This document shows positions 29,478 through 38,230 of a stretch of 64,000 nt of DNA, in pieces. The notes beneath the pieces were generated by a model. That model ran no database searches. It was not told where the DNA came from and worked only from the letters and a program-made list of their open reading frames with translations. The first letter of the stretch is position 1. Every line of letters begins with the position of its first letter. This DNA is from Archangium primigenium (GTDB taxonomy: Bacteria; Myxococcota; Myxococcia; Myxococcales; Myxococcaceae): positions 1,860,001 through 1,924,000 of the forward strand of contig NZ_JADWYI010000001.1 in the NCBI RefSeq assembly GCF_016904885.1, read 5' to 3'. Both the position numbers and the translations under genes were made by a program.

Positions 29478-32400
29478 TCAGCCGCGCGGGGGCACGGTGG
29501 GTTGATCCATCCACAGGTGCTCGAAGCGCACCTGGGGGGGCGTCTGCTGTAGCCGCAGGCCCTGCACCTGGGCATTGGCGGCCGTGTGCATGCGGTTGTG
29601 GAACAGCGGGATGACGGGGCAGTCGTCGAAGACGAGCCGCTCGGCGAGCCGGTAGAGGCGCTTGCGCTTCTGCGGATCGATGGTGACGCGCGCCTCCACC
29701 GTGAGCCGATCGAACTCCGCGTTGAGGTAGCCCAGCGAGTAGAGCAGCTGCGCCTTGGAGTTCAGGTGGAAGTAGAGGAAGTTGTCCGGGTCCGGGTAGT
29801 CGGCGATCCAGTTCACCCGGAAGGCGGCGAGCGTGCCGTCGCGGCGCCGCTCGCTGTAGTCCTCGGCGCGCAGCTCCACGTGGCGCAGGTCCACGAGCCG
29901 GGCCTCCACGAGCGGCCGGAAGAGCAGGGCGTCCTCGGCCGAGGTGTCGCGGCCCTGGGGGTGGTAGAGCGTGAGCGGGAGCATGCGCACCCCGGCCTCG
30001 CGCAGGAGCCGCTCCGCCAGGGAGACATCCGCCTGGAGCTCGGGCATGGGCCCGTCGTCCTCCAGCAGCTCCGGCGGGGTGAGCGTGCGGGCCACGTGCG
30101 CGCCCTTGTGGAAGTCGTCCACCAGCGAGCGCACGTCCAGGCCCGCGCGCAGCGCCTTGCGCACGCGCACGTCGTTGTAGGGCGACTCGCGCAGGTTGAA
30201 GCCGAGGAAGGTGGTGGAGGGCGTGGTGCTGGTGACCACCTGGTGTCCGTCGCGCTCGAGCGCCTCCACCTGCCGCGCGAACAGGTGCGACACCATGTCC
30301 ACCGTGCCCTGGCGCAGCGCCGTCACCGCCTGCTCGCGCGACTCCATGAGGTTGAACTCGATCCGGTCCAGCAAGGGCTGGCCCCGGCGCCAGTAGGCGG
30401 GGTTGCGCTCGAGCGTGATGCGCTCCGGGCCGAAGTCCACCAGCCGGAAGGGGCCCGCGCCCACCGTCTGGCCCCGGGCGTCCATGCGCGCCACCGCCGT
30501 GCCCGGCAGGGCCATGAGCTGCAGGAAGAAGGCCTTGGGCTCCTCCAGGCGGATCTCCAGCGTCGCGCCGTCCACGGCCTCGATGCCCGTCACCTCGCGC
30601 GCGCGGCCCTCCAGGTACGCCCGGGCGCCCTCCACGTCCTCCAAGAGGCCCCGGTCCGGGGACTTCACCGCCGGGTCCAACAGCCGCTCGAAGTGGCGCT
30701 TCACGTCGCGCGCCGTGAGCGGCGTGCCGTCATGGAAGGTGACGCCCGCGCGCAGGTGGAAGCGGTAGCGGCGCGCGGACGGGTCCGCCTCCCAGCGCTC
30801 GGCCAGGTCCGGCACCAGCACCCCGTCCTCCAGGCGCAAGAGGCTGGAGAAGACGCACGAGCTCATCTCCAGGATCTGGTTGTCCACGGAGAAGAGCGGA
30901 TCCAACCCGCCCTGGGCGCGCGCGAAGGCCGCCTGGTGGACGGCCGCGCGCAGCGTGCCGCCCGGCGTGGGCGTGGGCAGCCGGAAGCGGAACACCTCGC
31001 CATCCAGGCTGCGCGCCTCGTGCGCGAGCTGCTCCACCGAGCGGCTCAGGCCATCGCCGATGTGCATCACCTGGAGCGCGTCCTGGCGCACCTGGGCCAC
31101 TTCCTCGCCAATGGCCGCGTCCCCGCGCATGAGCACGCCGTGCGCCGCGCGGATCTCCTCGATGGCGGTGCTCAGCCGCACCACCGCCGTGGACAGGTCG
31201 CGCCCGGTGCGCGCCTGGCCCTCGGCCTTCTGCGACGCCTCCTGCGCGAGCTTGGCCATCTGCAGCGTCTGGTGCACCAGCTCGCGCCCGTGGCCCGCCT
31301 GCTCGATGGCCGCCCGGGTCACGTCATCCACGCGCCGCGCCACCCGGCGGCTCGCCTCCACCACCGTGGAGCCCTGGGCCTCCAGCCGCTTGGTCTCGGC
31401 CACCGTGGCCTCCACCGCGCTGAACGTGCGCTGGGTGATGGCGCGGAGCTCCCGCAGGTCCTCGGCCGCCCGGTCTCCGAGCTGCACGCCCACGCCCGCC
31501 TGCTCGCGGCCCTCCTTCACCAGGGACACCGCCGTGCCCACCTCGCGGCGGATGCCGCCCACCATGGTGGCGATCTCCCGCGTGGAGCGCGCGGTGCGCT
31601 CGGCGAGGCTGCGGATTTCGTCCGCCACCACGCCGAAGGGCCGGCCCTGCTCGCCGGCCTGCGCGGCGATGATGGCGGCGTTGAGCGCGAGCAGGTTCGT
31701 CTGGTCGGCGATCTCCTGGATGACGTCCACGATGCGGCCAATCTGCGTGGAGCGCACGCCGAGCGAGTCCACCAGCTCGGCCGTCTTCCGCACCGTCTCC
31801 TCCACCCGGTACATGCCCTGCACGCAGTCGTTGACGAGCACCGCGCCGTGCTCGGCCGTGGCCGTCACCGCGTGGGCGAGCTGGTTGGTCTCCGAGGCCC
31901 GGTGGCGCACGGCGTCGATGCCCGACTGCACCACCTGCACGAAGGCCTCCGCCTCGCTCGCGAAGCGCGCCAGCTCGTCGCCCGAGGAGGCGATGTGGTG
32001 CAGCCGCTCGCTCATGGACTGCACCTGCTGGGTGGTGCGGTGCGAGAAGTCATCGAGCGCGAGCAGCGCCTCGGCCACCTGCCCGAGCCGGTCCGACATG
32101 TCCGTGAGCGAGCCGTTGGTCTCCTGGGCGAACGTCTCCAGCTGCGCCACGCGCTTGCCCGCGGCCTGGAGGCTGTGGCCCATGCTCACCACCGACTGCT
32201 GCGAGCGCTCCACCGCGCCGCCCTGGCGGTGCGCGGCCTCCAGGAGGATGCCCACCTTGTCGGAGACCTCCTGGCAGGTGCGGCGCACGTTGCCCGTCAC
32301 CCGCTGCACCTGGCCGAGCGCGCGGCGCAGCGAGAAGAGCAGCCGGTGGGCCTCGCGCTGCTCGCGCGTGCCGCTGTAGTACGCGCCGTTGGTGAGGTCG

Positions 32401-32636
32401 CCCTCGGCCAGCCGCGCGAGCAGCCCCGCGCGCTGGCGGATGCGGTCCCTCGCCCAGAGAAACCAGAACAGGTAGCTTGAGCCGAACACCACCGTGGGAG
32501 GGCCGAGCAACACCACGGCCCAGCTGGCCCCGTTGAGGGGCTGCTCGCCGACGAGCGAGAGCAGTCCTCCCAGCACGAGGGACAGCGCGAACGAGGCGAC
32601 GATGACGAACGAGAGGAGATACTTGTTGGCGCCCAT
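29478..32636 (-). CDS. Chemoreceptor fused to a family-5 solute-binding domain
   Basis: A 1052-residue protein that joins two families. Residues 1-65 have two membrane helices ([20 protein letters not shown] and [23 protein letters not shown]) with only a short loop between them. Residues about 70-550 are a methyl-accepting signalling coiled coil with the hairpin tip [18 protein letters not shown] at 308-325 ([18 protein letters not shown] follows), where CheA/CheW bind. Residues about 557-1052 are a complete SBP_bac_5 (OppA/DppA-like) domain: [82 protein letters not shown], and CPVIPLFH. No helix follows the signalling part, so the binding domain should lie in the cytoplasm, as in SgrR regulators, not in the periplasm. 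No transporter or che genes are adjacent. The start ATG overlaps the next gene's ATG on the other strand. Confidence 0.9.
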
Positions 32637-34733: not shown

Positions 34734-35003
34734 GGGGCACCCGCGTCCCCCCCTTCCGGCCGGGGGTCCGCTGACAGGGAGGGCTACCTTACACCACCTG
34801 GGAGGCGCGTCAGCCGCGCTCCCCGTCCGAGCGGGCAACGCGCCGCGTCGCTGCTCCCGCTTTGTCTGCTTCTCGCGGCCCGGGCGCTCGGCCGTCTGTC
34901 TGCCCTTTTGTCAAGGGAGAAGAAATGACAGCCGCTTGAAATAAAACTCCAAAATGAGAGCGTGCACGTCGCCGTTGGCGTTCCAACCTCGACGAGGGAG
35001 TGC
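34734..35003. other. Divergent intergenic region with AT-rich leader
   Basis: About 270 bases between astA and the polysaccharide lyase. The stretch 34905-34960 is much richer in A/T than its surroundings (TTGAAATAAAACTCC, then AAAATGAG), as expected for a promoter or leader of the lyase gene. No open reading frame with coding character and no clear palindrome were seen. Confidence 0.4.
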
Positions 35004-36011
35004 GTGCCTTTGAGAAGACTCCTGCTTTCTTTGCTCACCGTGCTGTTGCCAGTCTCGTCGTGGGCGGGTGTGGTCTGGCGGGGGGACTTCGAGACCGGCA
35101 ACATCGGGCAGTACACGAGCACCCAGCGCGTCAGCGCGGACCGGCTGCAAGTCGTTCAGGCCGCGGGCGCCACCCCCGACAGCCGCTACGTGCTCAAGGC
35201 CACGGTGCGCCAGGGAGACAATCCCATCAACGCCAGTGGCAACCGCAACGAGCTCGTCTACATGGGCAAGGAGCGGGAAGGGTCCGAGTATTACTATCGC
35301 TGGCAGGTGAAGTTCGCGCCGGACTACCCCAGCGCGAACACCTGGCAGGTCTTCACCCAATGGCATCACGAGGGCTGCTGTGGCTCACCGCCCGTGGAGT
35401 TCTTCGTCAAGGGCGAGGAGATCCGCCTCACGCTCACCAACACCACGACGCCGTGGAAGACGAAGCTCGTGCGCGGCGAGTGGCAGGACTTCATCTTCCA
35501 CGTGAAGTGGTCGTCGAGCGCGTCCGTGGGCTTCGTGGAGCTGTGGCACAACGGCAAGCTCGTGCTGTCCAAGCTCAAGCACGCCACGATGTACCCGAAC
35601 GACGGCATCTACCTGAAGCTGGGCCTGTACCGCAGCGACACCGTGCAGCCGGTGGGCGTCGTGTACCACGACGGTTTCACCCAGGCGACGGCGTGGGAGG
35701 ACGTGAAGCCCGCGGACCCCACGCCCGTGCCCGTGCCGCCCGCGGAGCCGACGCCCGCGGAGCCCGACGCGGGCACGCCTCCGGCCCCCGACGCGGGTGA
35801 GCCCGAGGCCGACGCGGGCGCTCCCTCCACCGAGCCGTCGCCCATCGTGGACTCCACCTCCCCCTCGCCCGTCGTGGACACGCCGCCGGCCCACACGCCC
35901 TCCGTCGAGGCCATCGGCCCGCACGTGGGCTGCACCAGCGCGGGTGGCCCGCTCGGCGCCCTGGGCCTGCTGGGGCTCGGGGGCCTGCTGCGCCGCTCGC
36001 GACGCCGGTAG
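35004..36011 (+). CDS. Secreted polysaccharide lyase with MYXO-CTERM tail
   Basis: A protein of about 335 residues. A signal peptide (LRRLLLSLLTVLLPVSSWAG) precedes a beta-jelly-roll domain like heparin lyase I/alginate lyase-type proteins: VWRGDFETGNIGQY, RNELVYMGKEREGSEYYYRWQVKF, VFTQWHHE, EWQDFIFHVKWS, VELWHNGKLV, and YLKLGLYR. These motifs fit a polysaccharide lyase that cuts acidic polymers by beta-elimination; the exact family and polymer are unknown. A Pro/Asp/Ala-rich linker leads to GCTSAGGPLGALGLLGLGGL plus Arg residues, a MYXO-CTERM sorting signal for surface anchoring or release. GTG at 35004 and TTG at 35010 are both possible; GAGGGAG at 34994-35000 suits either. Confidence 0.85.
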   Translation: MPLRRLLLSLLTVLLPVSSWAGVVWRGDFETGNIGQYTSTQRVSADRLQVVQAAGATPDSRYVLKATVRQGDNPINASGNRNELVYMGKEREGSEYYYRWQVKFAPDYPSANTWQVFTQWHHEGCCGSPPVEFFVKGEEIRLTLTNTTTPWKTKLVRGEWQDFIFHVKWSSSASVGFVELWHNGKLVLSKLKHATMYPNDGIYLKLGLYRSDTVQPVGVVYHDGFTQATAWEDVKPADPTPVPVPPAEPTPAEPDAGTPPAPDAGEPEADAGAPSTEPSPIVDSTSPSPVVDTPPAHTPSVEAIGPHVGCTSAGGPLGALGLLGLGGLLRRSRRR

Positions 36012-36043
36012 CGCCAGGGCGACGGCAGAAGTAGTCTGGGGCC

Positions 36044-36622
36044 ATGGGACGCCCGACGTCGAATCCCAGGCCCCGGCCCACCCCGGAGGAGCTGCTCGCC
36101 GCGGTGGGCGCGACGATGCCGGATGTCATCGCGCCCGGCCTGAAGGTCCTCTTCTGCGGCATCAACCCGAGCGTGTACTCGGCCGTGGTGCGCCACCACT
36201 TCGCCCGGCCGGGCAACCGCTTCTGGCCCGCGCTGCATGCCTCGGGCTTCACGCCCCGCCTGTTCTCTCCCTTCGAGCAGGAGGAACTGCTCGCGCTCGG
36301 CTGCGGCATCACCAACGTCGTCGCCCAGGCCTCGGTGTCCGCGGACACGCTGACGGCCGCCGAGTACGCCGAGGGGGGACGCCAGCTGGAGGCCCGGGTG
36401 CGGCGCTACGGCCCACGCTTCCTGGCCGTGCTCGGCATCGGCGCCTGGCGCACGGCCTTCCAGAAGCCGCGCGCCGTGCTGGGCCCCCAGCCCGAGTCCC
36501 TGGGGGGCGCCCGCGTCTGGGTGCTCCCCAACCCGAGCGGCCTCAACGCCCACTACCGGCCCGTGGACCTGGCCCGGCTGTTCCGGGTCTTCCGCGAGGC
36601 GGTGGAGTCGTTCCCCAGGTAG
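36044..36622 (+). CDS. mug: G/U mismatch-specific DNA glycosylase
   Basis: A 192-residue Mug/TDG-type uracil-DNA glycosylase superfamily member, which removes uracil or thymine mispaired with guanine. Key motifs are LFCGINPSVYS (motif with catalytic Asn), HHFARPGNRFWPALHASGF (the Mug-type helix), and VLPNPSGLNAHY (the NPSGLN wedge loop). The length is slightly larger than E. coli Mug because of an N-terminal tail rich in Pro/Arg. It begins 32 bases after the lyase stop on the same strand but has no functional link to it. Confidence 0.93.
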   Translation: MGRPTSNPRPRPTPEELLAAVGATMPDVIAPGLKVLFCGINPSVYSAVVRHHFARPGNRFWPALHASGFTPRLFSPFEQEELLALGCGITNVVAQASVSADTLTAAEYAEGGRQLEARVRRYGPRFLAVLGIGAWRTAFQKPRAVLGPQPESLGGARVWVLPNPSGLNAHYRPVDLARLFRVFREAVESFPR

Positions 36623-36694
36623 GGCGGTTTTGAGGGTTTGTCAGGGATGTCCTATAAGACGGTCCTCCAATCCTGTCACCGAGGGGAGCTGTCC

Positions 36695-38230
36695 ATGCGG
36701 ATCCCGAAGAAGCCCATGCTGGCCGTTGCCTGTCTCGCCCTGTCGGCGTGCGCGCCGGAAGCCTCCGAGCAGCAGCCGGAGGCCCTCACCCCCGTCGTCG
36801 CCGGCAAGTTCCTGCGCTCGCCCGAGGCCATCTCCGGGCAGTACATCGTCGTGCTGAAGGACGCCGAGGTCGGCAAGGCGCAGGTGCCCATGCGGGCCCA
36901 GGCGCTGGCCACGCGCCACGGCGCGGCCGTCACCCTCACGTACGCCCACGCGCTGCGCGGCTTCGTGGTGCGCGCGGACGAGCGGGGCGCGCGGGCGCTC
37001 GCCCAGGAGCCGGAGGTCGACTACGTGGTGGAGGACGGACGGGCCGAGGCCATCGGCACCCAGTCCGGCGCCACCTGGGGCCTGGATCGCATCGACCAGC
37101 GCGACCGGCCGCTCAATGGCGCCTACACCTACGACACCACTGGCGCCGGGGTGCACGCCTACATCATCGACTCCGGCATCCTGACGACCCACGCGGACTT
37201 CGGGGGCCGGGCCACCGGGGACTTCACCGCCATCAATGACGGCCGGGGCGCGGGGGACTGCAACGGCCACGGCACGCACGTGGCGGGCACCGTGGGGGGC
37301 ACCACCTGGGGCGTGGCCAAGAACGTCCGGCTGCACGCCGTGCGCGTCTTCGACTGCACGGGCTCGGGTTCCTGGTCGTCCGTCATCGCCGGCGTGGACT
37401 GGGTGACGGGCAACCACGTCAAGCCGGCGGTGGCCAACATGAGCCTGGGCGGTGGGGCCAACCAGGCGGTGGACGACGCCGTGCGCCGCTCCATCAACGC
37501 GGGGGTCGTCTACGCGGTGGCCGCGGGCAATGAGTCCACGGATGCCTGCTCGCGCTCGCCGGCGCGCACGGGCGAGGCCCTCACCGTGGGCGCCACCGAC
37601 AGCTCGGACACGCGCGCGTCGTTCTCCAACTACGGCGCCTGCGTGGACCTGTTCGCGCCCGGTGTGAACATCACCTCGGCGTCCTCCTCGGGGGGCTCCA
37701 CCAACATGAGTGGCACCTCCATGGCGTCTCCCCACGTGGCGGGCGCGGCTGCGCTCTACCTGGAGCGGGTGCCTGGCGCCTCGCCGGGCGCGGTGACCGC
37801 CGCGCTGCTCACCCAGGCGAGTCTCGGCAAGGTCGCCAACCCGGCCGCCTCCAACCGTCTGCTCCACAGCCGGGTGTCGGCCTCCTCGTCGTGTGGATTG
37901 CTCTCCGGAGGCGCGTCCCTCCTGGTGGGCCAGTCGCTCGGCGCCTGCGCCGGCACCGCCACGCTCGTTCACCAATCGGACGGCAACGTGGTCATCTACG
38001 ACCGGTTGGGCGCCCTGTGGTCGACGGGCACCGCCGGGCGCGCGACCTCCTCCTTCACCATGCAGGCGGACGGCAATGCCGTGCTGTACGCGCCCGGGAA
38101 CGTGCCCCTCTGGGCCTCCAGGACCGCGGGCCATTCGGGCACCCGTCTGTGGATGCAGGACGACTGCAACCTCGTCATCTACAACGCGAACGCCACCCCG
38201 GTGTGGGCCAGCGGCACCTCCTGCCGCTAG
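36695..38230 (+). CDS. Subtilase lipoprotein with bulb-lectin domain
   Basis: A 511-residue proteinase-K-type S8 serine protease. The lipoprotein signal ends CLALSACA (Cys19). Residues about 45-115 are an inhibitor_I9 propeptide ([13 protein letters not shown] to VDYVVEDG). The catalytic domain has Asp159 (IIDSGI), His192 (GHGTHVAG), oxyanion Asn279 (AAGNES) and Ser342 ([11 protein letters not shown]). Residues about 400-511 are a B-type (bulb) mannose-binding lectin domain with three QxDxN-type motifs ([27 protein letters not shown]). A carbohydrate-binding tail would hold the protease on glycan surfaces such as prey or matrix. GAGGGGAG precedes the ATG at 36695. There are no adjacent processing genes. 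Confidence 0.94.

Follow-up and report, generated by a model that had tools for sequence, protein, structure and literature searches.

An McpK-like chemoreceptor of a myxobacterium with a solute-binding domain behind its signalling rod, placed by prediction in the cytoplasm and possibly linked to Che8

The window analysed here (a stretch of 64,000 nucleotides from Archangium primigenium, taken at its full length) holds the gene of a chemoreceptor in which a family-5 solute-binding domain comes after the signalling rod. The protein is this myxobacterium's relative of McpK and a member of a known but little-studied kind of receptor. We propose that it is a sensor of a peptide-like solute in the cytoplasm which reports, with a McpJ-like receptor, through a Che8-like cluster, a proposal that we would neither bet on nor bet against. 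What is new here is the ligand signature, the support for the topology, and the proposal of Che8 and McpJ, which contradicts the suggestion of Dif made in print.

Table 1. Features of the McpK-like gene and its product (positions in the window)
Feature	Position	Strand	Evidence
mcpK-like gene, 1052 codons and stop	29478..32636	minus	open frame; ATG at 32636; start matches the start of many relatives
Membrane helix 1, residues 2-30	32547..32633	minus	hydropathy up to 2.49; AlphaFold model helix 2-30
Membrane helix 2, residues ~38-61, short loop before it	32454..32525	minus	model helix 36-77; hydropathy 1.48; positive charges after it
Long signalling rod, residues 91-548, MCPsignal at 253-426	30993..32366	minus	Pfam, model; gapless match to 2ch7
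Hairpin tip, residues 305-350	31587..31724	minus	I323 and Q326 at the positions of Tsr E385 and R388
Family-5 solute-binding domain, residues 554-1046	29499..30977	minus	Pfam, model; VIA Z 39.3 to DppA 1dpp
D946	29799..29801	minus	aligned with DppA D436 and OppA D445 (precursor numbering); invariant, 28/28
R896	29949..29951	minus	one alignment position off DppA R383; at least 90% conserved

An earlier note on this DNA had described a single reading frame with a membrane hairpin, the coiled coil of a methyl-accepting chemotaxis protein (MCP) and a C-terminal family-5 domain, and its statements about the sequence were right. The frame is open over all 1052 residues, with none of the frameshifts that the note had thought conceivable, and the domain searches that it proposed gave matches in the expected halves, both far over the cut-off: MCPsignal with E 6e-34 (117.7 bits against a cut-off of 34.6) and SBP_bac_5 at residues 607-960 with E 1e-74 (252 bits, profile positions 2-363 of 368). 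When we looked for genomes with the same order of domains, both were found in each of the 28 aligned relatives, MCPsignal at E<=0.1. An assembly artefact or frameshift is ruled out by the open frame together with 85 nearly full-length relatives. The AlphaFold model used below was built on the 28-sequence alignment, and its pLDDT falls below 50 in parts of the rod, the block means in the binding domain being mostly 80-97.

The second hydrophobic segment of the N-terminus exceeds a hydropathy of 1.6 in 17 of the 28 relatives and 1.3 in 26 of them. Past residue 76 a value above 1.6 is reached in one relative of the 28, within the rod near residue 353 and away from the junction of the two domains. 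Between rod and binding domain (residues 481 to about 593) we found no hydrophobic stretch in 49 relatives, the highest window being 1.05, and hence no membrane helix at residues 500-560, a place where one had been thought dangerous to the cytoplasmic reading. The mean number of lysines and arginines is 1.8 at the N-terminus (net positive in 25 of 28 relatives), 0.3 in the loop between the helices (net positive in 2) and 4.9 behind helix 2 (net positive in 26, the exceptions, L056 and L057, being the most distant members). By this charge bias the rod should lie in the cytoplasm, and with it the binding domain that follows, in agreement with the placing suggested in the earlier note, and we think that the presence of both protein ends in the cytoplasm is well supported; a periplasmic binding domain is ruled out by the same bias together with the junction devoid of a hydrophobic stretch. 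If both ends are cytoplasmic, the binding domain lies at the membrane-near end of the rod's second arm. A HAMP domain was matched in one of seven N-terminal pieces (E 0.009, under the cut-off), and in the 28-sequence alignment L81 never varies and G79 and D80 hardly do; a HAMP remnant behind helix 2 is possible.

It had also been suggested that this layout could be a distinct receptor class, and here we have to disagree, because the layout is already that of McpK of Myxococcus xanthus (PMC3945109), and TlpD and DcrH are further receptors with C-terminal sensors. The 2014 table of that paper gives McpK (MXAN_6456, ABF92748) as a protein of 1048 aa with a solute-binding domain, and names no ligand for it. 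Ours resembles it in length (1052 aa), in the MCP region (listed at 246-463), in the solute-binding domain, in that no HAMP is listed and in its orphan locus, and differs in having two membrane helices where the table lists three (PMC3945109). The order of membrane helices, rod and solute-binding domain, the length of about 1050 aa and the orphan gene thus all agree with the McpK family, a fit judged from the table row and not from the sequence of MXAN_6456. PMC3945109 is the one paper in which we found an MCP/solute-binding fusion described.

Other proteins share parts of this arrangement. TlpD of Helicobacter pylori likewise has its sensor behind the signalling rod and in the cytoplasm, but, as described in PMC6715182 and PMC12871147, it is a cytosolic protein that begins with a PAS domain and whose C-terminal sensor is a zinc-binding CZB domain. 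DcrH of Desulfovibrio vulgaris is described as carrying a hemerythrin-like sensor at the C-terminus of a chemoreceptor, but it has a periplasmic domain and a HAMP domain too, and its diiron site binds oxygen (PMC13401364). DppA and OppA have the same fold and the same anchoring Asp, but are exported, free-standing and serve a transporter. The family-5 domain of SgrR of Escherichia coli sits in a cytoplasmic regulator (annotated as DNA-binding), whose output is however DNA binding and in which Asn replaces the anchoring Asp. The comparison with SgrR made in the earlier note is thus apt for the cytoplasmic placing and fails for the ligand site, SgrR being without the peptide-anchoring Asp.

The receptor is a conserved one. 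Matches at E<=1e-60 were found in 92 of 195 Myxococcota genomes, nearly whole-length in 85 and partial or split in 7, which answers the concern that the fusion might be lost in all close relatives. They are concentrated in the family of the window (88 of 96 genomes, against 4 of 99 others, namely G057, G155, G163 and G164, the two groups being separated by the numbering of our genome handles). Fifty relatives were extracted, and the alignment was made from 28 that are less than 85% identical among themselves. In one genus a second copy, nearly full-length, is present in three genomes (G061, G062, G065); it shares 73-75% identity with the query and may have another ligand, and a fourth genome of that genus (G064) has two partial copies. 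In G116 (L232, G116:C4:214500-218000) the reading frame changes between the two halves, at the domain junction, either because the gene is truly split or through an error of sequencing.

Outside these genomes, none of 1924 matching plasmid records covers 80% of the query in one place, the fusion was not found in viral contigs, and the defence families gave weak matches to rod-like stretches (best E 0.0015). A scan of named genomes with two distant relatives, read for the best 80 of 568 relatives (593 stretches), gave no match past query residue 561, and it carries little weight for absence outside Myxococcota. Ten neighbouring proteins in the window were scanned and comprise no che gene and no ABC transporter: they are a 4-alpha-glucanotransferase, a methylpurine-DNA glycosylase, a sigma factor, a radical SAM protein, a VTT/DedA-like protein, one protein without a match, AstA, a polysaccharide lyase, a uracil-DNA glycosylase-like protein and a subtilase. 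The genes of the polysaccharide lyase, the uracil-DNA glycosylase-like protein and the subtilase are adjacent (34962-38230 of the window).

What the domain binds can be approached from its fold and its conserved residues. According to PMC9602780, the solute-binding Pfam families include many cytosolic proteins and sensor domains. The model superposes on DppA with glycyl-leucine with an rmsd of 2.1 over 463 residues, and equally well (Z about 39, rows within one unit of Z being ties) on ligand-bound AgaA and on MppA; structures of AgaA with agropinic acid, of AccA and of NikA are in the list as well. In our alignment with the E. coli proteins, D946 falls on the Asp which, as we take it, anchors the amino end of bound peptides in DppA and OppA, and beside it W943, D949, D951 and F953 are invariant in the 28 sequences. 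R896, well conserved if not invariant, lies next to the place of the arginine (R383) that presumably holds the carboxyl end of the peptide in DppA. A DppA with both residues changed is in the PDB (8z1z, with R383D+D436R in the title). Of the other aligned family-5 proteins of the genome, L163 has Asp at this position, L160 Glu and L162 Ser. There are five family-5 matches in the genome, one fused to the receptor and four with an N-terminus that looks by eye like that of a signal or a lipoprotein sequence; five such matches are few for a genome of 9.5 Mb.

Since the Asp is kept in all 28 relatives and is absent in SgrR, we rate a peptide-like ligand above a sugar phosphate, and from the earlier guess of "peptide or sugar" we would retain the peptide, for which the DppA/OppA-type D946 speaks, and give up the sugar. 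Our best guess from the conserved residues is that the ligand may be a short peptide-like solute, in a family that is versatile. One could object that the fold binds many ligands, as the tied structures with agropinic acid and the listing of AccA and NikA illustrate, and that SgrR is said to sense sugar phosphate, which would leave room for a cytoplasmic sugar phosphate, opine-like compound or metal chelate; D946 and R896 are nevertheless of the DppA type, where SgrR has its Asn, and a non-peptide solute seems improbable to us. One could go further and see in the domain a structural or docking module, for instance a site meeting a transporter or another protein. We found no measurement of a ligand, nor one of a partner, and in the 28-sequence alignment the conservation of the domain does not exceed that of the rod outside the tip (mean majority frequency 0.67); the invariance of the anchoring Asp and of the four residues around it, and the match of the fold to ligand-bound DppA and AgaA and to MppA, make this a doubtful reading in our eyes.

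The partner of the receptor has to be sought from its rod and tip and from the che clusters of the genomes that carry it. The rod core aligns without a gap over 269 residues to PDB 2ch7, which we believe to be Tm1143, a receptor of class 44H. At the tip, the Ile and Gln that McpK has in place of the Glu and Arg of Tsr recur in one of the 24 other chemoreceptors of the genome, a McpJ-like orphan, DifA having the E/R tip. From the GDL motif to the tip Asn we count 240 residues in McpK and 244 in the McpJ-like receptor, against 179 in DifA. Among the 22 remaining receptors the value is 113-161 in 16, and in the last six a GD motif was not found at a plausible distance. Much the same distances are seen in relatives, 238-239 for McpK in five genomes and 177-179 for DifA-like receptors in seven, that of McpJ-like receptors being readable in our genome and in G155 (244) only. 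All eight McpK genomes examined have a receptor with an I/Q tip and a 234-residue C-arm. In a tree of the tips (105 residues, 11 McpK members and 24 other receptors) McpK stands beside the McpJ-like receptor with a support of 92/82, which is under the tool's strong threshold, and DifA is outside that group. Two tandem chemoreceptors of the same genome (L007 and L008, G000:C1:1289913-1290389 and 1291610-1292086) have identical 105-residue tips; they are perhaps the Che3 pair, with a recent duplication or gene conversion.

The strict methylation consensus is present in 10 of the 28 McpK relatives, seven of these sharing one site near residue 489, and it appears to be poorly kept in these proteins; among the 24 other receptors of the genome it is present in only 10, and DifA is not one of them.

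The earlier note had asked whether a che cluster co-occurs with the receptor. The genome has several, including Dif and a receptor-less cluster of Che8-like type. The latter reads CheR-HEAT-CheW-CheW-CheA-CheY, an order that fits the che8 locus tags in the tables of PMC3945109. The cluster that we call Dif has a P2 domain, which a table of the same paper gives to DifE alone. A further cluster (L171, G000:C1:3156000-3170000) combines a CheA that bears a receiver domain with CheW matches and a TPR-containing CheR; MCP matches are absent from that stretch.

Two genomes have very few receptors, G104 (95% complete) and G140 (100%). Each has three chemoreceptor matches, a DifA-like receptor beside the Dif genes, a McpJ-like receptor and McpK (all three loci were read in both, and 30 of the 52 listed matches over the eight genomes), and in each the CheW matches fall into two clusters, Dif and a receptor-less CheY-CheA-CheW-CheW, with one more weak match elsewhere in G140. 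Compared with the Che8-like CheA of our genome, that of the receptor-less cluster is 49.7% identical in G104 and 52.5% in G140 (over 414 residues). DifE, DifD, DifC and DifA of G104 are 55-70% identical to those of our genome and its McpJ-like receptor 46.5%, Dif of G140 being recognised from layout and tip only. The simplest reading is that DifA goes with Dif, and the McpJ-like receptor and McpK with Che8. Among 24 chosen genomes CheA8 was found in five of the six with McpK and in three of the 18 without it (Fisher p 0.007, ignoring kinship and the choice of genomes). The exceptions are CheA8 without a McpK match in G069 (98% complete), G106 and G152, and McpK pieces without CheA8 in G164, the last three genomes being 78-85% complete. 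As the genomes are related, such counts are not independent.

This brings us into conflict with PMC3945109, which, in the parts that concern us, places McpK with DifA in class 44H and suggests Dif for both; the comparison is by table row, the two McpK sequences being unaligned. Besides that assignment, a route through Dif and DifA for a receptor of cytoplasmic peptides has on its side the gapless match of the core to 2ch7, and the DifA-like receptors that accompany McpK in seven of the eight genomes examined, although a partner found in seven of the same eight genomes fails to separate Dif from Che8 by its presence. Against Dif stand the E/R tip of DifA, the place of DifA away from McpK in the tip tree, and the difference in rod length, 240 against 179 residues in two receptors assigned to one class, with a McpK rod that reaches residue 548. 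According to PMC3945109, trimers of dimers do not seem to form between receptors that differ in length, and in TlpD a Glu and an Arg close to the tip are described as trimer contacts (PMC12871147). Moreover, the Dif clusters of G104 and G140 already hold a receptor and their Che8-like clusters hold none. We consider the Dif route unlikely and, from the I/Q tip, the rod length and the receptor-less Che8 of G104 and G140, propose that McpK reports to Che8. It has to be counted against the Che8 proposal that Che7, with Mcp7, is also present in M. xanthus; McpJ is linked to both Che7 and Che8 in PMC3945109. McpK is absent from the two-hybrid assays of that paper (its section 10) and from its ten localised fusions. 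Among its mcp deletions, five mutants are named as without a defect, McpK not among them, and at least 13 have developmental defects; we infer that mcpK is one of the latter.

The Che8 proposal would work as follows. A short peptide-like solute of the cytoplasm would be bound by the domain, whose closure around it would twist or loosen the base of the helical bundle and so change CheA activity at the tip. McpK would share arrays with the McpJ-like receptor, whose tip carries the same I/Q signature and whose rod is about as long, and the signal would go to the receptor-less Che8-like cluster, so that the internal peptide supply would modulate a Che8-controlled behaviour. The more general form of the idea, that of a conserved myxobacterial receptor in which an internalised dipeptide-binding protein reads the cell's own peptide supply and, with McpJ, feeds the receptor-less Che8, we put forward tentatively, with more doubt than conviction.

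If it is true, this would be a chemosensory array listening inside the cell for nutrition, not outside for gradients. In myxobacteria starvation decides between feeding and the formation of fruiting bodies, and how nutrients are measured internally is known in part. A receptor through which cytoplasmic peptides act on a chemosensory system would be a direct way of making this measurement, and with the assignment to Che8 a system that lacks a receptor gene in its cluster gains a named partner that can be tested.
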